64,000 nucleotides of DNA. It comes from Oscillospiraceae bacterium. Its GTDB lineage: Bacteria; Bacillota; Clostridia; Oscillospirales; Oscillospiraceae. Both the position numbers and the translations under genes were made by a program. Positions 6,770-23,003 of the stretch are shown here, piece by piece (within the stretch, counting starts at the first letter, position 1; each line of letters begins with the position of its first letter). The DNA is taken from NCBI GenBank assembly GCA_017538965.1, contig JAFYHU010000062.1, forward strand, positions 38,472 to 102,471, given 5' to 3'. The notes below the pieces were generated by a model. That model made no database searches, had not been told where the DNA came from, and saw nothing but the letters and a program-made list of their open reading frames with translations.

Positions 6770-9706
6770 ATGCATTCCATCCGATTCAAACTCTCCGCCA
6801 TCACCCTCGCGGCGATTCTCGTCAGCATTCTGACGGTGGTTCTCACGGTGGTCTTTACGGTACGGGACGAGAGCGACCGGAGCGCGACCGAGAATCTGAC
6901 GCTGCTGTGTGAAAACCAGCGGCAGTTGCTGGACGACTATTTCGACAGTATCGAGCAGTCGGTGGAGATGGCGGCCAATATTACGGTGGATTCGCTGGAC
7001 AGCGTCGCCCTGGTCGAGGGCGGCGTGGCCGGGGAATATGCCAGAAAGCACGGACATACGCCGGAACAGGCGAAGGCGCTGGACGCATATCTTGCTGCGC
7101 ACTGCGAGGAAGTACAGGAGGCTTTCGGCAGCGTCGCCAACCATACCAACGGCGTAGTGACCTACTATTACTGCATCAGCCCCGATATCAGCAATAACGA
7201 ACACGGCTTCTTCTATTCCAAGGTCGGCAAGACGGGGTTTGAAGAGCGGGAACCGCTGGATGCGCGCAAGCTGGATCCGAAGGACTTCGAGCATACCACC
7301 TGGTACTTTACGACCCTTCAGCGCGGCAGACCCTCGTGGATCGGCCCCTATCTGGCGCACTTCCTCGACGAGATGCTGACGGTCTCCTATACCACCCCGA
7401 TCTACAAGGCGGGGGTGGCAGTCGGCGTGCTGGGCATGGACATCCCCTTCGAAACGATGGTCACGCAGATCAGTTCGCTGAAAGTCTATGACAGCGGCTT
7501 TTACGCGCTGTTTGATTCTTCGGGGGCGGTGCTGTACCATCCCGAACTGCCGATGGGCAGCGTGCCGGAAGTATTCTCCGGCGAAGAGGGAAGAGCGCTC
7601 TTCCAGCAGAAAAGCAGCGAGGGCCGCGAGATCCGCTACAACTACGAGGGCGAGGAGCGGCAGATGGCTTTCTCGACTCTCTCCAACGGCACAAAGCTGG
7701 TCGTGACGGCGCCGGTCAAGGAGATCACGGCCTCGTGGTCACAGCTCAGCCGCTCGATCCTGTTTGAGACGGGGATCGTTGTTCTGCTTTTCGGCATCGT
7801 ATTTCTGCTTGCTCTGGGGCTTCTCATCACGCCGCTGCAGCGCCTGACCGCCGCTTCGGGCAGACTGGCGGACGGCGATTACGACGTGGAACTGGATTAT
7901 GAAGGCAAGGACGAGGTCGGCAGACTGACCGGCGCCTTCAAACAGATGCGCGATCATCTGAAACAGTATATCGGCGACCTGAACCGACGCATCAACACCG
8001 ACGAGCTGACGGGCCTGCCGAGCGTGAGCCGCTTTTACGAGCAGGCCGAGAACGTGCGCTTCCGCATCGTCGAGGCGGGAGGAAAACCGGTCATCCTGTT
8101 CTTCAACCTCAACGGCATGAAGGACTTCAACCGCCAGCATGGTCTGAAGGAAGGCGACCGTCTGCTCTGCGCGGTTGCGGAAATCCTGGCGAAGCATTTC
8201 GGAAAAGACAACTGCTGCCGCATGGGGCAGGATCAGTTTGCCGCAATCGTCGACGACGAGCGCCTGGACGAGCGTCTGAAAGCTGTGTTCGAAGACGTTC
8301 TGAACGCCAATGACGGCAAAACCCTCCCGGTGCGCGTGGGCGTGTATGAAGACCGGATGAGGTCGGTGGACACCAGCACGGCCTGCGACCGCGCCAAGTA
8401 TGCCTGCGACCTGCTGCGCGGCGCCTACGTGTCCGATTACCGCCGCTTTGACGAGACTATGCTGACCGGCATCGAGAGCTACCGCTATGTTGTCAACACG
8501 CTGGAAACGGCACTGGAGGAGCGCTGGATCAAGGTCTACTTCCAGCCGATTATACGCGCGGCCAACGGCAAGGTCTGCGATGAGGAAGCGCTTTCGCGCT
8601 GGATCGATCCGGACCGCGGGATAATCTCGCCGGGCGAGTTTATTCCGATTCTGGAAGACGCGCGCCTGATCTACAAGCTGGACCTTTACGTGCTGGATCA
8701 GATCCTGCTGAAGATCAAGGCACTGGAGGAGGAAGGCCTGTACGTCGTGCCGCAGTCGCTGAATCTGTCCCGCATCGACTTTGAGGCCTGCGACATTGTC
8801 GAAGAGGTTCGCAAGCGCGTCGACGAGGCCGGCATTTCCCGCGACAAGCTGACCATCGAGGTCACGGAAAGCGCGGTCGGACGCGATTTTGAATTCATGA
8901 AGTCACAGATTCTGCGCCTGCAGGAGATGGGCTTCCAGGTTTGGATGGACGACTTCGGCAGCGGCTATTCCGCGCTGGACGTGCTGCAGGATATCCATTT
9001 CGACCTGATCAAGTTCGACATGCGCTTCATGCATCGCTTCGGAGAGGGGAACGAGAGCCGCATCATCATGACGGAACTCGTGAAAATGGCTCTGGCCCTG
9101 GACGTTGAGACCGTGACCGAAGGCGTGGAGACGCAGGAGCAGGTCGAGTTCCTGCGGGAGGTGGGCTGCACCAAGCTGCAGGGATACTATTTCTGCAAGC
9201 CGATCCCGCTGGAAGAGATCGTCATGCGCTACCGGAAAGGCATCCAGATCGGATTCGAGAATCCGGAAGAGACGGACTACTATACAGCCATCGGACGCAT
9301 CAATCTCTACGACCTGACCGCGGTCTCGAACGCCGGCAGCGAGACGCTCGGCGATTTCTTCGATACGCTTCCGATGGCGGTGGTGGAATCGGATACCGAA
9401 GTCTTCCGAACGACCCGCAGCAACGACGCCTACCGCAGATTCATGGAGCGCTGGTTCCGCATCTCTGATCTGACAGCGCCGCGCCGCTTTGATTCGCTGA
9501 CGGACGGAGTGGACACCCCCTTTGCCGACGCCGTCATCCGCTGCCGCGAAGAGGGCGTACGCATGTTCTTTGACGCAAAGCTCCCGGACGGCTCGACCGT
9601 GCACAGCATGGCGCGCTTTGTCGCCAGGAACCCCGTGACCGGCATCTGTGCCAGCGCGGTCGCCGTACTCGGCATCTCAGACTCCTCAGCGGAAGAAAAG
9701 GAATAG
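6770..9706 (+). CDS. dCache-HAMP-degenerate GGDEF-EAL phosphodiesterase
   Basis: The 978-residue membrane receptor has TM1 at about residues 7-29, an extracellular dCache-like domain (about 30-325), TM2 at about 328-352, and HAMP (about 352-405). The GGDEF domain has its active motif replaced by GQDQF (about residue 485), so it is unlikely to make c-di-GMP. The EAL domain (about 565-825) keeps EALSRW (about 605), NLSRIDF, VTES, DDFGSGYS (about 726), K in DLIKFD, and EGVETQEQ, so c-di-GMP hydrolysis is expected. A further ~150 residues after the EAL domain look PAS-like but are weakly conserved. The binding lipoprotein encoded just upstream is a plausible ligand partner, and 5 bases separate this gene from the next. 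Confidence 0.92.
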   Translation: MHSIRFKLSAITLAAILVSILTVVLTVVFTVRDESDRSATENLTLLCENQRQLLDDYFDSIEQSVEMAANITVDSLDSVALVEGGVAGEYARKHGHTPEQAKALDAYLAAHCEEVQEAFGSVANHTNGVVTYYYCISPDISNNEHGFFYSKVGKTGFEEREPLDARKLDPKDFEHTTWYFTTLQRGRPSWIGPYLAHFLDEMLTVSYTTPIYKAGVAVGVLGMDIPFETMVTQISSLKVYDSGFYALFDSSGAVLYHPELPMGSVPEVFSGEEGRALFQQKSSEGREIRYNYEGEERQMAFSTLSNGTKLVVTAPVKEITASWSQLSRSILFETGIVVLLFGIVFLLALGLLITPLQRLTAASGRLADGDYDVELDYEGKDEVGRLTGAFKQMRDHLKQYIGDLNRRINTDELTGLPSVSRFYEQAENVRFRIVEAGGKPVILFFNLNGMKDFNRQHGLKEGDRLLCAVAEILAKHFGKDNCCRMGQDQFAAIVDDERLDERLKAVFEDVLNANDGKTLPVRVGVYEDRMRSVDTSTACDRAKYACDLLRGAYVSDYRRFDETMLTGIESYRYVVNTLETALEERWIKVYFQPIIRAANGKVCDEEALSRWIDPDRGIISPGEFIPILEDARLIYKLDLYVLDQILLKIKALEEEGLYVVPQSLNLSRIDFEACDIVEEVRKRVDEAGISRDKLTIEVTESAVGRDFEFMKSQILRLQEMGFQVWMDDFGSGYSALDVLQDIHFDLIKFDMRFMHRFGEGNESRIIMTELVKMALALDVETVTEGVETQEQVEFLREVGCTKLQGYYFCKPIPLEEIVMRYRKGIQIGFENPEETDYYTAIGRINLYDLTAVSNAGSETLGDFFDTLPMAVVESDTEVFRTTRSNDAYRRFMERWFRISDLTAPRRFDSLTDGVDTPFADAVIRCREEGVRMFFDAKLPDGSTVHSMARFVARNPVTGICASAVAVLGISDSSAEEKE

Positions 9707-9711
9707 AAGCG

Positions 9712-10950
9712 ATGATTCTGGATACTTCGAAATATCTCGGGCCCTGCTCCTGCGGGCGTGATCACGAGCTGCGCACCAAGCTGGTGGTATGCGAGCACGG
9801 CGCGCTGAAGAAATTTGACAGCTACATGGACGATGCGGGGCTCTCGGGCTTCCGCACCGTGCTCTATGACACCAACACCTACAACCTGCCGTCCGTTACC
9901 CGCGTGCGCGCGGATCAGGAGATCGTTCTCGAAGCGCAGGGCCTGCACAGCGAGAAGGGCCTGATCGAGGACTGCATGACCCGCTTCGTGCGAAAACCCG
10001 ATTACGTGGTCGCGGTCGGCGGCGGCACGCTGATGGACTTCGCGCGCTATTCCGCCTGGAAGCTCGGCATCCCCTTTGTCTCGGTTCCGACGATCGTCTC
10101 GGCCGACGGCTTCACGGCAGACATCTGCTCGATCATCATCGACGGACAGAAAAAATCGATTCCCATGCAGGCGGCGGACGCCGTGATCTGCGACATCGAC
10201 GTGGTGGCCGGGGCGCCGCGTTTCCTGACCATCGCGGGACTACAGGACATTATGGCCAAGTGCGTTTCCATCGCGGACTGGAAGATCGCCCACCTGGTTT
10301 CGGGGGAATACTTCTGCGAGCGCGTATGCGGCATGGCTCAGGAAGCGCTGGACCTGATGACAAAGTGTGCTTATGACCTCAAGGCCGGCAAGGAGCCGGA
10401 CATCGAGACCATGGCCTATACGCAGATGCTGTCCGGGCTTACGATGCAGATTCTCTCCAATTCCCGCGCGGCCTCCGGTGCCGAGCACCTGGTCGCCCAC
10501 CTGGTCGAGATGAAGCCGCGGGGCTTTGAAAACGCCCACGGCCTGCACGGCGAGTGCGTCGGCGTGGGAACCCTTCTGGTGGCGCAGGCCTATCATAAGC
10601 TGGCGGAGCGCGAGAGCATCGAGGTCAAACCCTTCACGCCCATCGACGAAGAATGGGTTCGCTGGGAATTCGGCGAGCTCGCCGACGGCATTCTGAAGGA
10701 AAACGAAAACGATGTGCTGGCGACCTTCCCGCCCGAAAATATCAAACTGCACTGGCAGGAGATCCGCGGCATCATCGCCGAGATTCCGTCCTATGAGGAG
10801 CTCGACAGCCTCTACGCCGCCATCGGGGCCAAGCACACCCTCGAAGAGCTGGGCATCGACCCGGTGGTGAAGGACAGCTTCCTGGACATCTCCTCCGCGA
10901 TCCGCAACCGCCTGACGCTGGCCAGAATGACCCGGCTGATCGCCGACTGA
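9712..10950 (+). CDS. egsA: sn-glycerol-1-phosphate dehydrogenase (EgsA/AraM family)
   Basis: The 412 residues belong to the iron-containing alcohol-dehydrogenase-like fold used by glycerol-1-phosphate dehydrogenases. Seen here are CSCGRDHEL at the N-terminus, GGGTLMDFARYSAWK (about 102), VPTIVSADGF (about 125), and metal-ligand regions SGAEHLVAHL (about 257) and HGLHGECVGVG (about 277). The enzyme reduces dihydroxyacetone phosphate to sn-glycerol-1-phosphate with NAD(P)H. In Bacillus subtilis this feeds heptaprenylglyceryl phosphate, and the gene (araM/egsA) lies beside araL, a HAD phosphatase, as it does here. The protein is slightly longer than Bacillus EgsA. It is third in the operon. Confidence 0.88.
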   Translation: MILDTSKYLGPCSCGRDHELRTKLVVCEHGALKKFDSYMDDAGLSGFRTVLYDTNTYNLPSVTRVRADQEIVLEAQGLHSEKGLIEDCMTRFVRKPDYVVAVGGGTLMDFARYSAWKLGIPFVSVPTIVSADGFTADICSIIIDGQKKSIPMQAADAVICDIDVVAGAPRFLTIAGLQDIMAKCVSIADWKIAHLVSGEYFCERVCGMAQEALDLMTKCAYDLKAGKEPDIETMAYTQMLSGLTMQILSNSRAASGAEHLVAHLVEMKPRGFENAHGLHGECVGVGTLLVAQAYHKLAERESIEVKPFTPIDEEWVRWEFGELADGILKENENDVLATFPPENIKLHWQEIRGIIAEIPSYEELDSLYAAIGAKHTLEELGIDPVVKDSFLDISSAIRNRLTLARMTRLIAD

Positions 10951-10957
10951 GGAGCCT

Positions 10958-11779
10958 ATGGACGACTACAGAAAACTGAGAGACTGCGAGCTCTTCCTCT
11001 TCGACATGGACGGCACACTCTACCTCGGCGACGAGGTCTATGACGGTGCCGTTGCCCTGATGGAAGGCATGCCGGAGCTCGGAAAGCGGTATATTTATCT
11101 CACGAACAACTCCTCCCGCGCCGGGACGGATTATATCACGCGGCTCAGAAGGCTCGGCTTCCCCTGCGAGGCGGAGAACGTCTTCACCTCGGGCATGGCC
11201 ACGGGCATGTACCTGAATCAGAACTGCCCCGGGGCCAGCGTATACCTCGCGGGAACAAAGGCTTTTTACCGTGAGCTTCAGTCCTACGGCATCCGGCTTG
11301 TCAACGACGAAAACGGACATACCGAAGCGGACACGGTCGACGTGGTCGTCCAGGGCTTCGACCGCGAGCTGACTTATGAAAAGCTGGACAGGGCGGTGCA
11401 CTTTCTGCGCCGGGGATCCAGGTTCATCGCCGCGAACCCGGACTGGGTCTGCCCGATGCCGGCCGGCGAGGTTCTGCCCGATTGCGGGAGCATCTGCGCG
11501 CTGCTCACGGCCTCGAGCGGAGTAAAGCCCGAGTACATCGGCAAGCCCAACCGGAACATGATCGACGTGATCAGCAGAATGACCGGCATTCCGAACGAAA
11601 AGATCTGCGCCGTCGGCGACCGGCTCTATACCGATATTGCCGTGGCGCAGAACGCCGGGGCGGTCTCGGTGCTGGTGATGTCCGGAGAGACGGACGAAGC
11701 CATGCTCGCCGCCGCCGAGCGCAAACCCGACTACGTCCTGCCGTCGGTGAAGGAACTGCACGAAGTGCTGCGCAGCTGA
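10958..11779 (+). CDS. HAD-IIA family phosphatase (NagD/AraL-like)
   Basis: The 273 residues carry all four HAD motifs: FDMDGTLYLG (motif I), TNNSSR (motif II), the Lys in IGKPN (motif III) and GDRLYTDIAVAQNAG (motif IV). The C2-type cap between motifs II and III fits the NagD/AraL group, which removes phosphate from small sugar or nucleotide phosphates. It follows egsA by 7 bases and ends the operon before a strong terminator. The egsA-HAD pairing repeats the araM-araL pairing of Bacillus. The substrate may be glycerol phosphate or another triose or pentose phosphate (inference). Confidence 0.87.
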   Translation: MDDYRKLRDCELFLFDMDGTLYLGDEVYDGAVALMEGMPELGKRYIYLTNNSSRAGTDYITRLRRLGFPCEAENVFTSGMATGMYLNQNCPGASVYLAGTKAFYRELQSYGIRLVNDENGHTEADTVDVVVQGFDRELTYEKLDRAVHFLRRGSRFIAANPDWVCPMPAGEVLPDCGSICALLTASSGVKPEYIGKPNRNMIDVISRMTGIPNEKICAVGDRLYTDIAVAQNAGAVSVLVMSGETDEAMLAAAERKPDYVLPSVKELHEVLRS

Positions 11780-12023: not shown

Positions 12024-12611
12024 TTATACAAATTGTCCGCTTTGGTAGTGCAGGATTGTGCAGCCGAGGGAGCGGGCTTCCTCTTCGCTGTGGGTGGCCA
12101 TGAGAAGAGCGGTCTGTCCGAGGGAATCGGCCAGCAGCTTCAGCACGCGCAAGCGCAGCTCGTCGTCCAAACCCTTGAAGGGCTCGTCCAGGACCAGCAG
12201 ATCGGGCCGATAAGCCATGGCGCGGGCAAGCGACACTCTCTGCTGCATGCCGCCCGAGAGCTCGTCCGGATACAAGGCCGCGGCATCCTTCAGCTCCAGC
12301 CGGTCCAGCCACTGCATGGCGTTTTCCCGGGCGTCCGGGTCAGCAGCCAGCGGGAGCAGGACATTCTCCAGGGCAGTGCGCCAGGGGAGAAGGCGCGGCT
12401 CCTGAAAGACGGCGGAGACGCGGCCAAAATCGCAGCGGACAGCGCCGCTGTCGGGCATCTGCAGGCCGAGCGCGACGCGCAGCAGGGTCGTCTTCCCGCT
12501 GCCGGAGGGGCCCATCAGAGCCAGACGCCCGCCGGAGGCGAGGGAAAGACTGCAGTCCCGCAGCACGGCTTTATCGCCGAAGGAAAGGACAACATCGCGC
12601 AGTTCAAGCAT
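12024..12611 (-). CDS. ABC importer ATP-binding protein (SsuB/TauB-like)
   Basis: The 195 residues hold Walker A GPSGSGKTT, Q-loop VSAVFQEPRLLPW, signature LSGGMQQRVSLARAM, Walker B LLVLDEPF and H-loop ATHSEEEA. The short length and the FQEPRLLPWRTALENV segment match ATPases of nitrate/sulfonate/taurine-type importers. The start overlaps the permease gene by 8 bases. It is the last gene of the TM1266-SBP-permease-ATPase group. Confidence 0.9.
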   Translation of the reverse strand: MLELRDVVLSFGDKAVLRDCSLSLASGGRLALMGPSGSGKTTLLRVALGLQMPDSGAVRCDFGRVSAVFQEPRLLPWRTALENVLLPLAADPDARENAMQWLDRLELKDAAALYPDELSGGMQQRVSLARAMAYRPDLLVLDEPFKGLDDELRLRVLKLLADSLGQTALLMATHSEEEARSLGCTILHYQSGQFV

Positions 12612-13368
12612 GTCTGCCGCCTCCTTTCCGGAAGTCCGTGCGGACCAGGCGCAGGAGAACGCGCTCGATCAGCAGACTGAGCAGGATGACCGTCAGCGTC
12701 CAGGCGAAGAGCTCGGTCGTTTCGAGATAGAGCTTCGATTCGTAGATCTGTCTGCCGATTGAAAGCGGCGGCACGGTGAGAACCTCCGCCGCGATCCCGG
12801 CGCGCCAGCCGAGCCCCAGCGCCGAGGACAGCGCCGAGCGGAAGAAGGGGAGCACCGAGGGAATCGTAATATGGCGCAGGACGGCGCCGCGGCCGAGGCG
12901 GTAGACGGCAGCCATCTCCAGAAGCTTCGGGTCCTGCCCGGCGATGCCGGCCGAGACATTGGCCCAGACGACGGGGAGAACCATCAGCCCCGTGATGACG
13001 ACCGGCAGGATATCCCGCCCGAGCCAGATCAGGGCGAGAATGATGAAGGAGGCGACGGGCGTGCTCTTGACCAGCGTCATCAGGGGCGCAAGCAGCTGTT
13101 TGCACAGGCGGCTGCGCTCCGTCAGGGCGGCCAGCAGAATCCCGAGCACGACGGCGGCCAGGATACCCGAGAGCACCCGCAGGATACTGCGGAAAACCGT
13201 TATCCAGAACCCGGCACCGCCGGCGAGGCGGATCAGGCAGCGCAGCACCTGCGCCGGAGAGGGAAGCAGCAGCTCCTTATTCACCAGCGCGGCCGCCAGG
13301 AACCAGACCGCCAGCCAGAACAGCGTCACGCCGAGCGCCGGAAGCAGTTTCCGGAGAGAGGCTTTCAT
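12604..13368 (-). CDS. ABC importer permease (SsuC/TauC-like)
   Basis: This 254-residue BPD-type permease has about six TM helices and the cytoplasmic EAA-like loop (EMAAVYRLGRGAVLRHITIPSVLPFFRSALSSALGLGWRAGIAAEVL) typical of the nitrate/sulfonate/taurine group. Its ATG overlaps the TGA of the binding-protein gene as ATGA (13365-13368). It should pair with the ATPase at 12024 as a homodimeric channel. Confidence 0.9.
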   Translation of the reverse strand: MKASLRKLLPALGVTLFWLAVWFLAAALVNKELLLPSPAQVLRCLIRLAGGAGFWITVFRSILRVLSGILAAVVLGILLAALTERSRLCKQLLAPLMTLVKSTPVASFIILALIWLGRDILPVVITGLMVLPVVWANVSAGIAGQDPKLLEMAAVYRLGRGAVLRHITIPSVLPFFRSALSSALGLGWRAGIAAEVLTVPPLSIGRQIYESKLYLETTELFAWTLTVILLSLLIERVLLRLVRTDFRKGGGRHA

Positions 13369-14333
13369 TTCAGAATGCAGTAGAAATCATCCCCCGGGAC
13401 GGCGCCGCCGATGGACTGGGGCGCGACCTTCAGCAGAATGTCATAGAAGGCGGAAAGTTGGGTCTGCATCTCTTCTCCCGTGATGAAGCAGATGTTGCAG
13501 CGGGGGATGGCCTTCTCGGCGACGGCGGCCTTCTGGAAGATGCCGGCGGCTTCGATGCATTCGGCGGCTTTCGCGGCATCGTCGGTCAGCAGCTGAACCG
13601 AGGCGGCATAATCCTTAAGGAAAGCGGCGACGGCATCCGGATGCTCTTTCGCAAACTCGGTGCGGACCACGGCACAGCCCTGGACGAGACTGCCGGGAGT
13701 GAAGACCTTGTCCCATTCTTCGGTGAGGTCGAGCACCACCTGCAGGTCCTTGTTCTGGGCGCGGGCGACCGTGAGAAGCGGCTCAGGCAGAACGGCGATT
13801 GCGACTTCGCCGGCGGTGACGGCGGTGTTCAGCTCGGCCGGCTGGGCATAGCTGTTGTCAATGGTGACTTTCACGCCGTTGGCGTCACAGAGCGCCTGAA
13901 ACAGGAAGCTCGGGTTCTGGGCAGGGGCATAGACGGTCTGACCGTCCAGATCGGCAAAGGATTTCACTTCGACCGAGCCGTCCGTGACCACATAGAGGAC
14001 GCCCAGCGTGTTCAGCGCGAGTACCTGGACTTTTCCTTCGGTCTTGTTGTAGAGCGCGGCGGCCGCGTTGGTCGGCAGGGCGGCAATGTCGCAGTCGCCG
14101 TTGACGAGGGCGGCGGTGACGTTTGAGGCATCGGTCTCCACCGAGAAGCTGTAATCCAGATCGGTATTGCCGGCATCCGCCTCGGCGATCAGGCCGGCGA
14201 GGCCGAAACCGGTGGTGCCGTTGAGCGTGAGCACGCGGACGGCTTCCTTCGGGGCATCCGCCGCCTGGGCGGCGCCGCAGAGAGCAAGACTGCATACAAG
14301 CAGAAGGGCAAGCAGAACAGAAAGTTTTTTCAT
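13365..14333 (-). CDS. NMT1/THI5-like ABC substrate-binding protein
   Basis: The 322-residue exported protein begins with a signal peptide (KKLSVLLALLLVCSLALCGAAQAADA). The LALCGAA stretch could be a lipobox, which would make it a lipoprotein. The body fits the NMT1/THI5-like/SsuA class: RVLTLNGTTGFGLAGLI, then GDCDIAALPTNAAAALYNKTEGKVQVLALNTLGVLYV and FADLDGQTVYAPAQNPSFLF. Relatives bind sulfonates, nitrate or formylaminopyrimidine, but no residue here settles the ligand. It lies 17 bases after a TM1266-type hydrogenase regulator and diverges from hydCBA, so a ligand linked to hydrogenase metabolism is possible (inference). Confidence 0.87.
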   Translation of the reverse strand: MKKLSVLLALLLVCSLALCGAAQAADAPKEAVRVLTLNGTTGFGLAGLIAEADAGNTDLDYSFSVETDASNVTAALVNGDCDIAALPTNAAAALYNKTEGKVQVLALNTLGVLYVVTDGSVEVKSFADLDGQTVYAPAQNPSFLFQALCDANGVKVTIDNSYAQPAELNTAVTAGEVAIAVLPEPLLTVARAQNKDLQVVLDLTEEWDKVFTPGSLVQGCAVVRTEFAKEHPDAVAAFLKDYAASVQLLTDDAAKAAECIEAAGIFQKAAVAEKAIPRCNICFITGEEMQTQLSAFYDILLKVAPQSIGGAVPGDDFYCILK

Positions 14334-14350
14334 GGTTTTTGACTCCTTTT

Positions 14351-14596
14351 TTATTTCTGAGAATAAATCGCGCGGGCGGTGACGCCGCTGAGGCGGCCGA
14401 GCTTGCCGGTGAGGGCGTTGACGGTGTCCGTCGGGGCATCCAGAACCAGGCAGATAACGCTGACCCCTTTTTCTCGGTAGGGGATGCCCATACGGCCGAT
14501 GACGCAGGCGGAATAGTCATGGAGGATGCCGTTGAGGGCTTCCACGGATTCCGGCGCTTCAACAATGACCGAGACGGCAGCAATGCGGGTTTCCAT
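14351..14596 (-). CDS. TM1266-family iron-only hydrogenase system putative regulator
   Basis: The 81-residue protein METRIAAVSVIVEAPESVEALNGILHDYSACVIGRMGIPYREKGVSVICLVLDAPTDTVNALTGKLGRL matches the small ACT-like TM1266 family, which travels with [FeFe] hydrogenase genes. The start at 14596 is chosen because AAAGGAG precedes it by a normal distance. A longer frame to 14641 runs back into the leader terminator. It heads a leftward group with an ABC importer and is divergent from hydCBA. Its mechanism is unproven in the family. ACT-like folds commonly bind small ligands, so it may sense the imported molecule (inference). Confidence 0.85.
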   Translation of the reverse strand: METRIAAVSVIVEAPESVEALNGILHDYSACVIGRMGIPYREKGVSVICLVLDAPTDTVNALTGKLGRLSGVTARAIYSQK

Positions 14597-14758
14597 CGGA
14601 TCTCCTTTCCCGCCGAACAAAAAAGCCATGCCGGAAGGCATGACACTTTTTCGCCGCGCGCGCAGGCACAGCGGTTATTCACGGCCTTCCGCCTCAAGCA
14701 GAGTTTCGGCGTCAGAAATGTTTCAAAGCCTCGCTGCAAGCGCCGCTCACAGTTCGGG
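14597..14758 (-). promoter_or_regulatory. Long leader with intrinsic terminator upstream of the TM1266-ABC genes; candidate riboswitch or attenuator
   Basis: From the predicted start of transcription near 14758, about 160 bases of GC-rich, structure-prone leader precede the ATG at 14596. The leader ends with a hairpin (CATGCC, loop TTCC, GGCATG; 14627-14642) followed by six U residues (14619-14624) and then the ribosome site. This is the usual layout of transcription attenuation. The upstream part shows no consensus boxes I recognise for TPP, SAM, cobalamin, Moco or glycine riboswitches. Confidence 0.55.
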
Positions 14759-14765
14759 TGGCGCT

Positions 14766-14794
14766 ATTGTAAGCCAGGAAAGCGGATTTGTCAA
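14766..14794 (-). promoter_or_regulatory. Promoter of the TM1266-ABC operon
   Basis: On the minus strand, TTGACA (14789-14794) and TACAAT (14766-14771) are separated by 17 bases, a near-consensus housekeeping promoter. It points away from the hydCBA promoter about 115 bases away. Confidence 0.78.
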
Positions 14795-14885
14795 TGGGAA
14801 TTGAGCACGCTCTGTTATTTTTTTGGCATAATATACAAAAATGATATTTTTTTCACGACAAACTGCCGAATCGCCGGACTTGGGC

Positions 14886-14914
14886 TTGTCATTTTGCCCT
14901 ACTTATTGTAAAAT
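14886..14914 (+). promoter_or_regulatory. Promoter of hydCBA
   Basis: TTGTCA (14886-14891) and TAAAAT (14909-14914) lie 17 bases apart. The leader to the hydC start is about 40-50 bases. Confidence 0.75.
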
Positions 14915-14960: not shown

Positions 14961-15446
14961 GTGTATGTAGCGTTGGAAAATGTTGAGCAGAAATTCGTAG
15001 ACTCGGTACTGGAGAAATATGACTGCGACAAAGCCAAGATCATCGCCATCATGCAGGACATTCAGGAGAAATACCGTTACCTCCCGAAGGAGGCGCTCGA
15101 GTATGTCGCCAAGAAGGTCGGAATGAGTGAGTCGAAGCTTTACGGCGTGGCCACGTTCTACGGCAACTTCTCGCTGGATGCCAAGGGCAAGTATGTGATG
15201 AAGGTCTGCCGCGGCACGGCCTGCCACGTGCGCAAGAGCAGCAATATTCTGCAGGCCCTCTATGAGGCGACCGGGACGGACGAGCACAATCCGACTTCGA
15301 CGGACGGCCTGTTCACGCTCGAGATCGTGTCGTGCCTGGGTGCCTGCGGCCTGAGCCCCGTTGTCATGGTCAATGATACTGTGCATGCGGCCATGACGCC
15401 GGACAAGGCAAAGGCACTGGTCGAACAACTGAGAGGGGAGGCCTGA
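14961..15446 (+). CDS. hydC: [FeFe] hydrogenase subunit HydC (NuoE-like, 2Fe-2S)
   Basis: This is a 161-residue NuoE-like thioredoxin-fold subunit. Residues KIIAIMQDIQEKYRYLPKEALEYVAKK and SKLYGVATFYGNFSL are family hallmarks. The 2Fe-2S ligands are CRGTAC (CxxxxC) and CLGAC (CxxxC). In HydABC it relays electrons between NADH chemistry on HydB and the clusters of HydA. Two starts are possible: GTG at 14961, which almost touches the AGAAAGG site, and TTG at 14973 (MENVEQKF), which has better spacing. Five bases separate it from hydB. Confidence 0.9.
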   Translation: MYVALENVEQKFVDSVLEKYDCDKAKIIAIMQDIQEKYRYLPKEALEYVAKKVGMSESKLYGVATFYGNFSLDAKGKYVMKVCRGTACHVRKSSNILQALYEATGTDEHNPTSTDGLFTLEIVSCLGACGLSPVVMVNDTVHAAMTPDKAKALVEQLRGEA

Positions 15447-15450
15447 GAAC

Positions 15451-17337
15451 ATGCGTGAGAAACTTTTAAACCTTGATCAGTTCAAGGCACTGCAGGAGAA
15501 ATGCATCAAGGCGCGCGAGAATGAGAAGCGCAAGGTTCTGGTATGCTGCGGCACCGGCTGCGCGGCCGGCGGAAACCTGAAGGTTTACGAAGAGCTGAAG
15601 AACCAGATGGCCGCGCACGGCGTCAAGTGCGAAGTGGCGCTGAACCTGACGGACTGCGCCGGGGAAGCGACGGGCCTCAAGATGTCCGGCTGCCACGGCT
15701 TCTGCGAGATGGGACCGCTGGTCCGCATCGAGCCGGAAGGATGGCTTTACACCAAGGTCAAGACGGACGACGTGCCCGAGATCGTCGAGAAGACGCTTGT
15801 GGGCGGCGAGTTCATCGAGCGCCTCGGCTATCACCAGAACGGCGAGCTTTACAAGCGCCAGGAGGACATCCCCTTCTATAAGAAGCAGACCCGGCGCGTG
15901 CTTGAGCACTGCGGCCATATCGATGCCGAGAGCATCGAGGAATATCTCTCCATCGGCGGCTACTCGGCCCTGGCCAAGTGCCTGTTCGAGCTGAGCGGTG
16001 ACGAGATTATTCAGGAAGTCAGCGATTCCGGCCTCCGCGGCCGCGGCGGCGCCGGCTTCCCGACCGGCAAGAAGTGGGCCCAGGTGGCCGCGCACAAGGA
16101 AGAGCCGGTCAAGTTCATCGTCTGCAACGGCGACGAAGGCGACCCCGGTGCCTTCATGGACCGTTCCTGCATGGAAGGCGACCCGCATAAGATTCTCGAA
16201 GGCATGATCATCGCGGGTGTCGCGACCGACTCGACCGAGGGCTATATCTATGTCCGTGCGGAGTATCCGCTGGCGGTGCACCGTCTGACCGTGGCCATTG
16301 CGCAGGCGGAAGAGCTCGGCATCCTGGGCGACAACATCCTCGGCAGCGGCAAGAGCTTCCACATGCACATCAACCGCGGCGCAGGCGCCTTCGTCTGCGG
16401 CGAAGGTTCGGCCATGACGGCCTCGATTGAGGGCAACCGCGGCATGCCGCGCACCAAGCCCCCGCGCAGCGTCGACAAGGGCCTCTTCGGCAAGCCGACC
16501 TGCCTGAACAACGTCGAGACCTTTGCCAACGTCCCCGACATCATCAAGAAGGGCGCCGCCTGGTTCCGCTCGGTCGGTACCGAAGGCAGCCCCGGCACCA
16601 AGGCCTTCGCCCTGACCGGCAACGTCGTGAACACCGGCCTCATCGAAGTCCCGATGGGCACCACCCTGCGTGAGGTCGTCTACGACATCGGCGGCGGCAT
16701 CAAGAACGGCAAGAAGTTCAAGGCTGTCCAGATCGGCGGACCTTCCGGCGGCTGCCTGACAGAGGCGCATCTGGATCTTCCGATGGACTTCGACTCGCTG
16801 AAGAAGGTCGGCGCGATCATCGGCTCCGGCGGTCTGGTCGTCATGGACGAGGACAGCTGCATGGTCAACATCGCGCAGTTCTTCATGAACTTCATCTGTG
16901 AAGAGTCCTGCGGAAAGTGCACGCCCTGCCGCGAAGGCACGACCCGCATGAACGAGATCCTGACCCGCATCACCAAGGGCAACGGCAAGATGAGCGACAT
17001 CGACGAACTGAAGACTCTGGGCAAGATGATTCAGACCTCTTCGCTCTGCGGCCTCGGCAAGACGGCCCCGAACCCGGTGCTGTCCACGCTGCAGAACTTC
17101 GAGGACGAGTATATCGAGCACATCCGCGACAAGCGCTGCCACTGCGGCACCTGCAAGTCGCTGGCTCAGTTCGTAATTACCGACAAGTGCATCGGCTGCA
17201 CCAAGTGCGCCCGCAACTGTCCGGTCAACGCCATCTCGGGAACCGTACGGCATAAGCATGAAATCGATCCGGCCAAGTGCATCAAGTGCGGTACCTGCAA
17301 GGCCAACTGCCCGGTTGGCGCCATCAAGGAGGGTTAA
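15451..17337 (+). CDS. hydB: [FeFe] hydrogenase subunit HydB (NuoF-like flavoprotein with ferredoxin tail)
   Basis: The 628 residues comprise an N-terminal thioredoxin-like 2Fe-2S domain (CCGTGCAAGG to CHGFCEMGP), a NuoF domain with NAD/FMN loops (RGRGGAGFPTGKKW, GDEGDPGAFMDR), the 4Fe-4S motif ESCGKCTPCREGTTRM (about 484-499), and two C-terminal 4Fe-4S motifs (CIGCTKCARNC about 580, CIKCGTCKANC about 610). It binds NAD(H) and FMN and is the flavin site of HydABC. The arrangement matches electron-bifurcating HydB of Thermotoga and acetogens, though the mode cannot be proved from sequence. Only 3 bases separate it from hydA. Confidence 0.94.
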   Translation: MREKLLNLDQFKALQEKCIKARENEKRKVLVCCGTGCAAGGNLKVYEELKNQMAAHGVKCEVALNLTDCAGEATGLKMSGCHGFCEMGPLVRIEPEGWLYTKVKTDDVPEIVEKTLVGGEFIERLGYHQNGELYKRQEDIPFYKKQTRRVLEHCGHIDAESIEEYLSIGGYSALAKCLFELSGDEIIQEVSDSGLRGRGGAGFPTGKKWAQVAAHKEEPVKFIVCNGDEGDPGAFMDRSCMEGDPHKILEGMIIAGVATDSTEGYIYVRAEYPLAVHRLTVAIAQAEELGILGDNILGSGKSFHMHINRGAGAFVCGEGSAMTASIEGNRGMPRTKPPRSVDKGLFGKPTCLNNVETFANVPDIIKKGAAWFRSVGTEGSPGTKAFALTGNVVNTGLIEVPMGTTLREVVYDIGGGIKNGKKFKAVQIGGPSGGCLTEAHLDLPMDFDSLKKVGAIIGSGGLVVMDEDSCMVNIAQFFMNFICEESCGKCTPCREGTTRMNEILTRITKGNGKMSDIDELKTLGKMIQTSSLCGLGKTAPNPVLSTLQNFEDEYIEHIRDKRCHCGTCKSLAQFVITDKCIGCTKCARNCPVNAISGTVRHKHEIDPAKCIKCGTCKANCPVGAIKEG

Positions 17338-17340
17338 GCC

Positions 17341-19032
17341 ATGGCTGAAAAGAAAATGATCATTGACGATATCGAATGCACGTTTACCAACGAGCGCAAC
17401 GTGCTCGAGGTTGCCCGCAACAACGGTATCGATATCCCGTCCCTTTGCTACTGCGAAAACCTTTCCATCTATGGCGGATGCCGCCTGTGCCTGGTCGAGA
17501 ACGAGCGCGGCGCCATGGATGCAGCCTGCTCGATGCAGCCGCGCAACGGCATGGTGGTTCACACCCATACCCAGAAGGTCCTGGACAGCCGCCGCATGAC
17601 GCTGCAGCTGCTCATGAGCAGCCACCGCGCGGAGTGCCTGACCTGCGACCAGAGCGGAAACTGCAAGCTGCAGGAGTATGCCCACCGCTACAACGTGTCC
17701 GAGCCGCGCTTTGAAGAGAACACCTATACCCGCCTTCCACTGGACGTCTCTTCCCCCTGCATCACGCGCGACCCGTCCAAGTGCATCCTCTGCGGCCTCT
17801 GCGTCCGTATGTGCTCCGAGGTGCAGAACATCGGCGCGATTGACTTTACCAAGCGCGGCAAGAGAGCCGTCGTCGCCCCCGGCTTCGGCAAGATGCTGAG
17901 CGAGACGGGCTGCGTCGGCTGCGGTCAGTGCGCTGCGGTCTGCCCGACCGGCGCCATCACCATCAACCGCCAGATCACCGAGATGTGGAAGATGCTGAAC
18001 GATCCGAACAAGAAGCTCGTCGTCCAGTTCGCGCCCAGCGTGCGCGTCGGTCTGGCCGAGCAGTTCGGCATGCCCGCCGATGAGCCCGTTACCGGCAAGC
18101 TGGTCACGGCGCTGCGCCGTCTCGGCGCCGAGGTCGTTTATGACACCAACCTCTCCGCCGACCTGACCATCCTGGAAGAGGCCGCCGAGTTCTTTGAGAA
18201 GGTGAAGAACGGCGACAAGCTGCCGATGTTCACCTCCTGCTGCCCCGGCTGGATCCAGCATGCCGAGAAGGCACACCCGAACATCGTGCCTCAGATCTCG
18301 ACCGCCGGCAGCCCGATGGAGATGCTCGGCGCCCTGATCCGCCAGCAGTTCAAGGATGAGGACGTCTACTCCGTCGCCATCATGCCCTGCACGGCCAAAA
18401 AGTTTGAGGCACAGCGTCCCGAGCTCGTGAAGGACGGCAAGCGCCTGATCGACCTGGTTCTGACCACCGATGAGCTGGGCAAGCTGATCAAGGCGGCCGG
18501 TATCGACTTTAAGAACCTGCCCGATTCAGAGCCCGACGATCCCCTCGGCGACTGGACCGGCGCCGGCGTCATCTTCGGTGTCACGGGCGGCGTGACCGAG
18601 GCGGTCATCCGCCATGTGCTGAACAGCGCTGCGCCCGACACCCTGCAGACCATCGCCGAGTGCGGCGTGCGCGGCCTCGAGGGCATCAAGGCCTTCAGCG
18701 TGACCGCCGGCGACCTGACCCTGAAAATCGCCGTGGCCAACGGCCTCGGCAATGCCGATAAGCTGATCGAAAAGGTCGAGAGCGGTGAAGAGTACTTTGA
18801 CTTCATCGAGGTCATGGCCTGCCCGAACGGCTGCATCGGCGGCGGCGGCCAGCCGCCCGCCTCCAACGCTCGCAAGAGAGAGCGTATGGAAGCCATCTTC
18901 AAGGAAGACGAAGCCTGCGAGCTGAGGATTCCGAGCCAGAACCCGGCCATGAAGTACGTGTACGACGAGCTGCTGAAGGGCCGCGCACACGAACTGCTGC
19001 ACATCCACTATCCGCTTCACGGACATCACTAA
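17341..19032 (+). CDS. hydA: [FeFe] hydrogenase catalytic subunit HydA
   Basis: The 563 residues comprise an N-terminal 2Fe-2S ferredoxin domain (CYCENLSIYGGCRLC), a His-ligated 4Fe-4S site (HRAECLTCDQSGNC, about 95-108), two 4Fe-4S motifs (CILCGLCVRMCSE, CVGCGQCAAVCP) and all H-cluster motifs: TSCCPGW (about 298), MPCTAKKFE (about 348) and EVMACPNGCIGGGGQP (about 489). It makes or consumes H2 at the H-cluster. It is shorter than Thermotoga HydA because it lacks that protein's extra C-terminal 2Fe-2S domain, as in several clostridial enzymes. HydE, HydF and HydG, needed to build the H-cluster, must be encoded elsewhere. Confidence 0.96.
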   Translation: MAEKKMIIDDIECTFTNERNVLEVARNNGIDIPSLCYCENLSIYGGCRLCLVENERGAMDAACSMQPRNGMVVHTHTQKVLDSRRMTLQLLMSSHRAECLTCDQSGNCKLQEYAHRYNVSEPRFEENTYTRLPLDVSSPCITRDPSKCILCGLCVRMCSEVQNIGAIDFTKRGKRAVVAPGFGKMLSETGCVGCGQCAAVCPTGAITINRQITEMWKMLNDPNKKLVVQFAPSVRVGLAEQFGMPADEPVTGKLVTALRRLGAEVVYDTNLSADLTILEEAAEFFEKVKNGDKLPMFTSCCPGWIQHAEKAHPNIVPQISTAGSPMEMLGALIRQQFKDEDVYSVAIMPCTAKKFEAQRPELVKDGKRLIDLVLTTDELGKLIKAAGIDFKNLPDSEPDDPLGDWTGAGVIFGVTGGVTEAVIRHVLNSAAPDTLQTIAECGVRGLEGIKAFSVTAGDLTLKIAVANGLGNADKLIEKVESGEEYFDFIEVMACPNGCIGGGGQPPASNARKRERMEAIFKEDEACELRIPSQNPAMKYVYDELLKGRAHELLHIHYPLHGHH

Positions 19033-20810: not shown

Positions 20811-23003
20811 ATGAAAGACGCTTTCAATGCTTTTATGCATATTTTCGGCTTTGAAAAGCTGAGCAAATATGAAAGCGACTATCTGCACGACTCGAATATT
20901 CGAACCAGCAGCTACATGGGAGTTATCGTCATCTTTCTGGAAATCTGGATGCTGCTCCGGCAGACGCGTTCCAAGATTATTCCCAAATATCAGGCCGGCG
21001 AAGACCTGTTCGGACTGATTGTAAAATACACGTCCAAATACTGGCTGTTCCTGTTAATCGGTCTGGGCATCATGCTGTTCTGTCTCTATCAGAAAAACAG
21101 GAAACTGACCAAAGGACAGTTTGTTTCGCTGCTCGCGGTCGGCTGCGCCTGCATCTTATACACCGGTGTTCTGAGCCTTGAAACGTTCACAAAGGCAAGC
21201 GATTCGATCACCCCGGTCATGGCAAACATCATGAATGCCATGCTGATCTCCATTTACGTTCTGCTGTTTGTAACCGGCGTGACGATCGTCGCCTATGCGC
21301 TGCTGAACTATCTGAAGAACAAGAGAGTCGTATTCCTGGAGCATCTGGTTATCATCTTCTTCACGCTGATCTGCCTTGCCTTCGGTATCTTCGTATCCTA
21401 CAGCGATTTCTGGGGCGGGAAGGAAATCATCTGCTTCCTGACGATGGTTATCTACGTGGGCTGCCTGCTGATCTACCGGCCGTATGTGACAGCCTTGATT
21501 CTCGGAGCCAGCTTCTTCGCGTTTTATAAAATCCTGCTGACCTTCCAGAACGGACTGACCTTCCAGGATACGGAGGTCGTCATCAACGGCATCACGCAGA
21601 AAATCATCTCCGGGGACTCCGTCAACTACGTCACCTTCTTTATCTCCCTGACCACGATCTGCTTTGCCATCTTCCACGGACGGCTGAATGAAGCCAACAA
21701 ATCAAAAGCTCTGGAAAAGAGCGCCCGGGAAGACGGCCTTACCGGCATGCATAACTACAGCTATTTTGCCGAGCTCGCGAAAGAGAGCATTCAGAATCTG
21801 GAAGATCACTATGAAGATTATGTCTTCCTGTTTCTCGACATTCACAACTTCAAGGCTCTGAACGATCAGAGAGGCTTTGAAGAGGGCGACAAGTTTCTGA
21901 TCGCCGTCGGAAAATATGTTTCCGATGTCTTTCGGGATGCCCTGTGCGCGAGACAGGCCGACGATCATTTTGTCGTTTTCACAAAAAAGGAAAACCTGAA
22001 AGAAAAACTGAACGCGTTAAACGACCTGGTCCATGATTACGACGATGAAATCCTGCTGGGCATCAACTGCGGCGGGTATCAGTTAAGCAGCAATAAGGAT
22101 GATCCGCGCATGGCGATCGACAGAGCGCGTTATGCTGCCCACCTGATCAAGAACCGCTTCCAGACCATCTATGCCGAATACGACAAAAAGATGAGCGAGG
22201 AGTATCACAAGAGGCTGTACGTTGTCAACAATATTGACAACGCTGTGAGCAACGGATGGATCGTTCCTTTCTATCAGCCGGTCGTGTGGTCGGATACGGA
22301 AGAGCTTTGCGGCTGTGAGGCGCTGGCCCGCTGGAAGGACCCGGTATACGGGCAGCTGTTCCCCAATGAGTTTATTCCGGTTCTGGAAGAATACCGTCTG
22401 ATCCATAAACTGGATAAAGCCATCTTCGAATCCGTGTGCAGAGACATGAGAACCTCTCTGGACGCCGGCAGGCCGGTTGTTCCGGTGTCGCTGAACTTCT
22501 CGAGACTCGATTTCGAACTGATGGATGCGGTTCAGGAACTGGAAGATCTTGTTAAGAAATACAACATTCCCAAAGAACTGATCCATGTTGAGGTGACGGA
22601 GAGCGCCCTTACGGATGATATCATCAAGCTGGATGATTCGATCAAACGCATCAAGGAACTTGGCTATTCCCTCTGGCTGGATGACTTCGGAAGCGGGTAT
22701 TCCTCTCTCAACGTCCTGAAGGATTACCAGTTCGACGTGGTCAAGATCGATATGCGCTTCCTGTCCAACTTTGAAAAAAGCGAGAAGTCGAGAACGCTGA
22801 TCGACTGCATTGTCAAAATGGCGAACAGGATCAACATGCTGACCCTGACGGAAGGCGTAGAAACGGAAGATCAGGCGGAATTCCTGAACGGCATCGGCTG
22901 CGAGCGCCTTCAGGGCTACCTGTTCGGCAAGCCGATCCCCAAGGAGGAGTTCTATCAGCGCATCGACAAAGGCGAACTGGTGGTTTCCGGCAGACAGATC
23001 TGA
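20811..23003 (+). CDS. Multi-TM degenerate GGDEF-EAL phosphodiesterase
   Basis: The 730-residue membrane protein has about six to seven predicted TM helices in the first ~285 residues with no large extracellular loop. A GGDEF domain follows whose signature is replaced by ADDHF (about 382). The EAL domain (about 485-725) keeps GCEALARW (about 500), VTES, DDFGSGYSSL, K in FDVVKIDM and EGVETEDQ, so c-di-GMP hydrolysis is likely. It is the second EAL protein here with an inactive GGDEF domain. A perfect AGGAGGTGATA ribosome site precedes the ATG. It stands alone between a divergent GNAT gene and a terminator. Confidence 0.92.
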   Translation: MKDAFNAFMHIFGFEKLSKYESDYLHDSNIRTSSYMGVIVIFLEIWMLLRQTRSKIIPKYQAGEDLFGLIVKYTSKYWLFLLIGLGIMLFCLYQKNRKLTKGQFVSLLAVGCACILYTGVLSLETFTKASDSITPVMANIMNAMLISIYVLLFVTGVTIVAYALLNYLKNKRVVFLEHLVIIFFTLICLAFGIFVSYSDFWGGKEIICFLTMVIYVGCLLIYRPYVTALILGASFFAFYKILLTFQNGLTFQDTEVVINGITQKIISGDSVNYVTFFISLTTICFAIFHGRLNEANKSKALEKSAREDGLTGMHNYSYFAELAKESIQNLEDHYEDYVFLFLDIHNFKALNDQRGFEEGDKFLIAVGKYVSDVFRDALCARQADDHFVVFTKKENLKEKLNALNDLVHDYDDEILLGINCGGYQLSSNKDDPRMAIDRARYAAHLIKNRFQTIYAEYDKKMSEEYHKRLYVVNNIDNAVSNGWIVPFYQPVVWSDTEELCGCEALARWKDPVYGQLFPNEFIPVLEEYRLIHKLDKAIFESVCRDMRTSLDAGRPVVPVSLNFSRLDFELMDAVQELEDLVKKYNIPKELIHVEVTESALTDDIIKLDDSIKRIKELGYSLWLDDFGSGYSSLNVLKDYQFDVVKIDMRFLSNFEKSEKSRTLIDCIVKMANRINMLTLTEGVETEDQAEFLNGIGCERLQGYLFGKPIPKEEFYQRIDKGELVVSGRQI

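Follow-up and report, generated by a model that had tools for sequence, protein, structure and literature searches.

The subject of this study is a four-gene operon in a stretch of 64,000 nucleotides from an Oscillospiraceae bacterium (contig JAFYHU010000062.1, positions 38,472 to 102,471), here called the window, where a TM1266-family gene is followed by the genes of an ATP-binding cassette (ABC) importer and stands divergent to hydCBA, the genes of an [FeFe] hydrogenase. The four genes may constitute a supply operon for the H-cluster of the hydrogenase, importing a precursor, for which a ready-made diiron or Fe-CO-CN unit is the likeliest candidate, and thereby replacing the maturases HydE, HydF and HydG; we put the probability of this reading at about 0.4. 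Four points are established at the level of sequence: the operon recurs, under TM1266 it and HydG exclude each other, the hydrogenase has its motifs, and an RNA is shared with maturase operons. The operon occupies positions 12024-14596 of the minus strand, hydCBA lies on the plus strand, and the elements of the former, from the promoter onward, are:

14766..14794, minus strand: sigma-70-type promoter of the TM1266-importer operon, TTGACA-17-TACAAT (11 of 12 matches, by pattern only)
14679..14719, minus strand: core of a leader RNA, CUGAC-GCC-RAAA..UUGA-GGC-GRAAGG, named the TM1266-leader RNA (model R1, 42.0 bits, E 2e-11)
14625..14644, minus strand: intrinsic terminator hairpin of 8 pairs with tail TTTTTTGTTC
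14351..14596, minus strand: TM1266-family gene, putative [FeFe] hydrogenase system regulator, 81 amino acids, ATG at 14596 (TIGR03959 hyd_TM1266, PF21699)
13365..14333, minus strand: substrate-binding protein with NMT1/SsuA fold (Pfam cut-offs passed)
12604..13368, minus strand: ABC permease (BPD_transp_1, PF00528, 50.6 bits)
12024..12611, minus strand: ABC ATPase (PF00005, 103 bits)

The TM1266 protein, which we take to have an ACT-like fold, scores 106.6 bits against a TIGR03959 cut-off of 60.8 and also matches PF21699. The spacings of 17, -4 and -8 bases between the four genes, given in a first-pass annotation made from the sequence alone, are confirmed by the coordinates, and so is its statement that the operon's promoter faces away from that of hydCBA (minus-strand site 14794-14766, plus-strand site 14886-14914). 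By pattern, five promoter-like sites are found when 0.4 are expected. The terminator and the RNA core of the TM1266 leader are not mentioned in that annotation.

In a sample of 150 genomes of the window's family (G000 to G149, where G000 is the window's own), TM1266 is over its cut-off in 62, and in 19 of these, the window's and 18 others, it is followed in the same order by binding protein, permease and ATPase; locus L048 is counted among the 19 although its contig stops after the binding protein. The neighbourhood survey of TM1266 homologues that the first-pass annotation had proposed thus finds the importer to recur, and the possibility that the pairing is peculiar to the window's genome is rejected.

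The presence of the importer goes together with the absence of HydG. None of the 19 TM1266-importer genomes has HydG over cut-off, while 27 of the 43 other TM1266 genomes have it, one partial match included (p=1e-6, in tests that here and below treat related genomes as independent). When only genomes of at least 90% completeness are considered, the numbers are 0/13 and 16/25 (p=1e-4), and an assembly artefact as the sole cause of the missing HydG is rejected on this ground and on that of G078, described below. HydE or HydF occurs in 37 of the 43 and in two of the 19 (HydF in G072 and G148), so that 17 of the 19, the window's genome included, have none of the three maturases over cut-off; in the window's genome no HydF reaches the cut-off, and neither HydE nor HydG has a match at E<=1e-3. 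The co-occurrence of TM1266 with maturation genes, given as known in the first-pass annotation, is seen in the 37 of 43 non-importer genomes with at least one of HydE, HydF and HydG, and is absent in the window's genome. From this division between genome types follows that TM1266 heads either the makers of the H-cluster or the importer. HydE, HydF and HydG are regarded as required for making the H-cluster, a process in which HydF carries the diiron unit, and to our knowledge they are the only H-cluster supply system described. The genome lists behind these counts were compiled manually from search outputs. HydG, HydF, HydE and carbon monoxide dehydrogenase (CODH) are over cut-off in 30, 37, 39 and 43 family genomes, and in 31, 40, 41 and 47 when partial matches below cut-off are counted as present; weak HydG matches (17-20 bits) in the importer genomes G040 and G149 were left uncounted.

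The same numbers bear on a second possibility, namely that what the importer contributes to H-cluster supply is a metal or a simple building block (Fe, Zn, Ni, cysteine or a sulfonate) and that hitherto unrecognized, diverged maturases finish the cofactor. With 17 of the 19 importer genomes lacking HydE, HydF and HydG over cut-off, such a plain precursor could become the cofactor only by an entirely undescribed pathway, and the window's genome lacks even HydE and HydG matches at the permissive threshold given above. Nor is the binding protein associated with CODH: it is present in 22 of 47 genomes with CODH and in 61 of 103 without (p=0.16), and no match to the window's binding protein or permease is found at E<=10 in 30 family loci of CODH, irrespective of clade, that were examined together with flanks of 1.5 kb. 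We regard the plain-precursor alternative as somewhat unlikely, and a CODH-linked importer as the sole explanation is rejected on these two results.

Absence of the maturases is a common state in the family. HydE, HydF and HydG are all missing in 80 of the 125 family genomes with an [FeFe] hydrogenase, among them G078, a single contig of 100% completeness, which has a hydrogenase and a non-TM1266 form of the binding protein and none of the three maturases over cut-off. The binding protein occurs in 60 of these 80 genomes against five of the 23 that lack both hydrogenase and maturases, and at a completeness of at least 90% in 43/56 against 1/12. In a sample of 299 genomes from the phylum, where the binding protein was counted at 200 bits or more, an [FeFe] hydrogenase is present in 47 of 49 genomes with the binding protein and in 172 of the 250 others (p=2e-5); among these hydrogenase genomes HydG is found in 24/47 with and 124/172 without the binding protein (p=0.008; 157 phylum genomes were counted as having HydG, 156 of them over cut-off). 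It suggests that many maturase-less [FeFe] anaerobes may take the H-cluster, or part of it, from their surroundings by means of an importer.

Such frequent loss of maturases would also be expected if HydABC in the importer genomes did not work, having no [2Fe] cluster, and if TM1266 and the importer were remnants of a former system. This has to be judged from the hydrogenase itself, the genes of which in the window are:

14886..14914, plus strand: promoter-like site of hydCBA, TTGTCA-17-TAAAAT (10 of 12 matches)
14961..15446, plus strand: HydC-like thioredoxin-type [2Fe-2S] subunit (PF01257, 160.6 bits)
15451..17337, plus strand: HydB-like subunit with Nuo51 FMN (flavin mononucleotide) and 4Fe-4S domains (PF01512, Complex1_51K, 152.9 bits; PF10589, 116.9 bits)
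17341..19032, plus strand: [FeFe] hydrogenase HydA, group A (TIGR02512, 457 bits; three motifs)

HydA, the only [FeFe] hydrogenase match in the window's genome at E<=1e-40, belongs to group A by its TIGR02512 score (cut-off 406) and its three motifs TSCCP, MPCTAKKFE and EVMACPNGCIGGGGQP, which presumably bind the H-cluster; it falls below the cut-off of the group A6 model NF040763 (683 against 765 bits). All three motifs are complete in the window's HydA and in those of L041, L096, L097, L098, L100 and L102, and the order of the operon is kept across many genera, whereas that of a remnant would decay. Two other importer genomes have HydAs that fall short of the strict motif patterns (pattern count two of three for L048, one of three for L050), as the idea of a remnant would have it. 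The HydAs of L085 and L247, which do have HydG, miss the first pattern too, so that this pattern is too strict. Taken together, this makes a non-functional hydrogenase with a leftover importer distinctly improbable.

The TM1266-leader RNA links the importer to the maturases. Upstream of TM1266 genes its general core reads CUGAC-RYY-RAAA..UUGA-RRY-GRAAGG, often with an intrinsic terminator 3' of it. With a pattern made by hand, 39 distinct cores were collected from 87 leaders; removal of five odd ones left 34, and removal of a variant subtype (L031, L032, L043, L047, L091) and of L077 left 28, the window's among them, which were aligned and used to build model R1. In the alignment 91% of the cells of a 4-bp stem can pair, as against 22-47% when the register is slid, and 15 cells have a double change where shuffles, which ignore relatedness, give 4.7 (0/500 as high). 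Three of five covariation measures exceed all shuffles, in accordance with a conserved, covarying structure of one 4-bp stem. Nothing in Rfam 15 matches the leader of the window at E<=5; at ten leader loci searched at E<=1 nothing reaches its gathering score, the nearest being Hrs13 beside the L185 core with 23.5 against 52 bits. The variant leaders, which have two halves resembling UGAC..GGAAGG before TM1266, are possibly a second form of the RNA.

In the window, the 5' arm GCCUUCC of the terminator is complementary over 7 bases to GGAAGGC of the RNA core, so that core and terminator together could form an attenuator. Among the 34 leaders, the GRAAGRY segment pairs better with the downstream part of its own leader than with those of others (0/500 swaps as high): AAGA cores are accompanied by UCUU in 9 of 10 cases and by CCUU in 4 of 10, AAGG cores by CCUU in 16 of 23 and by UCUU in 2 of 23. 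Taken singly, the complementarity reaches p<=0.05 in only 8 of the 34. Judged from base complementarity, the pattern would be as expected of an antiterminator.

R1 was run on 200 sources, namely the window, the loci L031-L176 (minus L042 and L089) and L278-L332, with L001-L030, L177-L277 and L333-L337 left out; the contig pairs L113 and L041, and L123 and L078, are duplicates under two names. At E<1e-3 there are 52 matches, the window included, of which 28 had built the model. Thirty stand before TM1266 with the importer and 16 before TM1266 without it, where 13 of the genomes have HydG; four stand before an importer with no TM1266 in between (L111, L117, L326 and L119, the last a second, weak match overlapping the end of TM1266), and the remaining two precede HydE (L094) and a nitrogenase-like operon (L063). 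In 50 whole genomes picked by hand, all 21 matches at E<1e-5 lie at H-cluster supply loci, 15 of these leaders belonging to the model and six being outside it, and the nine genomes without TM1266 have no strong match. Five weaker matches (E 0.002-0.009) occur in the same genomes, one of which (G017:C48) has a HydA match about 1.8 kb away. From this distribution follows that the RNA is a marker of genes for H-cluster supply, of importers as well as of maturases, but leaves some of these genes unmarked.

TM1266 is one of two regulators found at the head of the importer. When the family's loci are classified by the upstream regulator (81 loci from 83 genomes with the binding protein, G023 and G066 being left out), TM1266 stands first in 19 and a Crp/Fnr-type regulator, the identity of which Pfam confirms for three, in 27, while 35 have neither. 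Crp/Fnr-type regulators head many orthologous importers (L121-L176, L279-L337), so that one importer has two regulators, and no strong leader-RNA match was seen before Crp/Fnr-headed importers in the R1 scan of the 200 sources. HydABC lies within 6 kb of the importer in 12 of the 81 loci; HydG is present in none of these 12 genomes, and one of them (G079) has HydE and HydF. A Crp/Fnr-headed importer (L325) and one without regulator (L326) are both divergent from HydABC, in L281 hydCBA is followed by the importer, and in L072 HydA, TM1266 and the importer all run in one direction.

Since Crp/Fnr-type regulators are usual in redox control, the 27 loci lend weight to a different role, where the importer feeds or relieves a pathway that the hydrogenase serves, by way of an electron acceptor, a sulfonate or a toxic by-product, and is co-regulated with the hydrogenase for redox reasons and not for maturation. 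The SsuA/TauA fold, which suits sulfonates, fits with this. What such a role leaves unexplained is that TM1266 and the leader RNA head either HydE, HydG and HydF or the importer, and that HydG is missing in all 19 importer genomes; no catabolic gene was noticed to travel with the TM1266-headed importer, though no systematic search for one was made. We consider the redox role improbable.

A further 80 named loci (L097-L176), the best 80 of 575 found with the binding protein and therefore a non-random set, include 25 with TM1266 directly upstream and a 26th (L117) with TM1266 after the ATPase. Eleven of the best 80 show the window's divergent arrangement of importer operon and hydCBA. The 25 TM1266-headed loci come mostly from Oscillospiraceae, Ruminococcaceae or Clostridia metagenome-assembled genomes (MAGs), many of them from animal guts. 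The binding protein extends to a Firmicutes MAG with TM1266 and HydABC (L160) and to a Chloroflexi MAG where it adjoins HydABC without TM1266 (L157). When 186 binding proteins are placed on a FastTree tree, at least 18 changes are needed for the TM1266 label and 13 for the HydABC label. In Evtepia gabavorous (L162, 7749-11100) a binding protein is followed by a HydE-like protein (157 bits, cut-off 254.6) and HydF (516 bits); a permease and ATPase of this importer kind were not found there.

The binding protein passes three Pfam cut-offs (VitK2_biosynth 35.5, OpuAC 33.1 and NMT1 30.4 bits), and with an SsuA/NMT1-fold binding protein, one type of permease and one ATPase the importer is of the NitT/TauT type. 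The binding protein is below every curated NCBIfam subfamily cut-off (SsuA_fam 55.6 against 163.5, taurine 27.2 against 304), and the permease (SaoP, TauC, SsuC and NtrB) and the listed ATPase families are likewise far below theirs. Two cysteines, Cys19 and Cys279, the latter in an IPxCN motif, are invariant across 19 aligned relatives of the binding protein, and Cys279 is possibly a metal ligand. Judged by a rough sequence pattern, Cys279 is present in 42/44 TM1266-headed, 43/59 Crp/Fnr-headed and 58/83 unheaded binding proteins.

The mechanism proposed for import of an H-cluster precursor is as follows. Promoter, RNA, terminator, TM1266 and importer would be one transcription unit, the start of which, as placed from the promoter match, would lie about 160 bases upstream of TM1266. 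The leader RNA could stop transcription at the terminator, and a need for cofactor would lift the termination; the RNA, with or without TM1266, would in this way tune expression to the supply of cofactor or the need for it, TM1266 being an RNA-binding or ligand-binding partner. An H-cluster precursor released by neighbouring bacteria, in the likeliest case a diiron or Fe-CO-CN complex that is already formed, would be captured by the binding protein and brought into the cell by permease and ATPase. There it would complete apo-HydA, the [4Fe-4S] part of which is made by the ordinary iron-sulfur machinery, and import would stand in for HydE, HydF and HydG in the window's genome and its like. Import of a precursor is chemically possible, because synthetic [2Fe]adt given to living Escherichia coli and Synechocystis activates apo-HydA without HydEFG, according to the available text of PMC6984386, which names no dedicated importer for the uptake.

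The first-pass annotation had suggested that the importer brings in a small molecule connected to H-cluster assembly or hydrogenase control and sensed by TM1266. The first part, as far as it concerns H-cluster supply, comes out stronger than proposed, by the complete absence of HydG over cut-off, the near absence of HydE and HydF and the shared leader RNA; as to the second, the RNA is at least as likely a sensor as TM1266. No description of a TM1266-importer system was found in the literature covered, most subscription papers and bioRxiv lying outside it, and in its available text PMC11736057, where ammonia-lyases are tied to hyd operons, the word 'transporter' does not occur.

Several observations weigh against import of a preformed H-cluster precursor. 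We know of no free diiron complex from nature, and the nearest known folds to the binding protein bind sulfonates, nitrate, bicarbonate, thiamine precursors or zinc. Of the 19 importer genomes, 16 have a group A hydrogenase over cut-off, and in G002 not a single [FeFe] hydrogenase is seen at E<=1e-40. HydG coexists with the importer in 2/27 Crp/Fnr-headed and 9/35 unheaded loci, as against 0/19 headed by TM1266; 24 of the 47 phylum hydrogenase genomes with the binding protein do carry HydG, and 29 of the 95 HydG-less [FeFe] genomes of the family have no binding protein. A general anti-correlation of the binding protein with HydG is weakened: among family [FeFe] genomes it is gone at a completeness of at least 90% (10/57 against 8/29, p=0.40), though the phylum sample has it. 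The tree of TM1266 proteins has two supported pairs, and its resolution is too low for independent origins to be shown. As to the RNA, two covariation measures are weak (double-change pairs 144/500, pair types 21/500 shuffles), the window's leader folds no better as a single strand than shuffles do (z -1.08), and 20 of the 41 hand-picked TM1266 genomes have no strong R1 match. At E<1e-3 the RNA is found in 10 of the 19 importer genomes (the window, L041, L048, L050, L072, L074, L075, L078, L079 and L096) and missed in nine.

A separate arrangement is seen in seven genomes (G031, G130, G104, G021, G124, G101 and G033), where NifH-, NifK- and NifD-like genes adjoin TM1266. None of the seven genomes has HydG; the corresponding loci are L035, L045, L063, L064, L087, L093 and L094, and NifH-like is absent in L087. 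L035 is a single run of TM1266, a FecCD permease, an ATPase, HydE, NifH, two nitrogenase-component-1 proteins, a FecB-type binding protein and HydF. The place of HydG may be taken in these genomes by a nitrogenase-like complex. In the window, GGDEF-EAL proteins flank the hydrogenase region on both sides (6770-9706 and 20811-23003), and positions 9712-11779 hold a glycerol-1-phosphate-dehydrogenase-like protein, followed 7 bases on by an HAD-IIA phosphatase.

A wider generalization is possible but more doubtful: many anaerobes would scavenge an Fe-CO-CN precursor shed by HydEFG-bearing neighbours by means of a dedicated ABC importer, and TM1266 and a cis-regulatory RNA outside Rfam 15 would be one regulon for making or importing, perhaps with a nitrogenase-like/FecBCD-type route that replaces HydG as the third. 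If import is indeed what the operon does, an organometallic iron centre would be shared between bacteria in a manner comparable to the sharing of vitamin B12, and hydrogen metabolism in gut and rumen would hinge on which members of the community build the cofactor. The leader RNA is a marker for genes of H-cluster supply, and the signal would be known from its ligand. A maturase-less [FeFe] hydrogenase is the common state in the sampled family, yet the window and its close relatives keep the cofactor motifs.

Among known systems, SsuABC, TauABC, ThiXYZ and NrtABC are NitT/TauT importers of the same kind as that of the window, which differs from them by its IPxCN motif, its linkage to a hydrogenase and its scores below every subfamily cut-off. 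A further comparison is 3hn0 (BDI_1369, 'nitrate transport protein', from Parabacteroides distasonis), with 23% identity to the window's binding protein. PqqT, which binds pyrroloquinoline quinone (PQQ) and for which we know of no link to hydrogenases, has 14% identity and a different cofactor; from its binding of PQQ follows that the fold family is able to bind a redox cofactor. NitT/TauT importers also adjoin clade B Ni-CODHs, for which nickel transport has been proposed in Inoue 2019 (PMC6344411), which likewise points to 3un6, and in eLife 2026 (PMC13056359). The likeness lies in an importer of the same class adjoining an anaerobic metalloenzyme, and the difference in that the window's binding protein and permease are unmatched at 30 CODH loci in the family and within 1.5 kb of them. 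HydEFG makes the H-cluster de novo, where the window's system would import instead. In the operons of HydE, HydG and HydF that have TM1266 as their first gene, many share the leader RNA of the window, which has an ABC importer in the place of the maturases.

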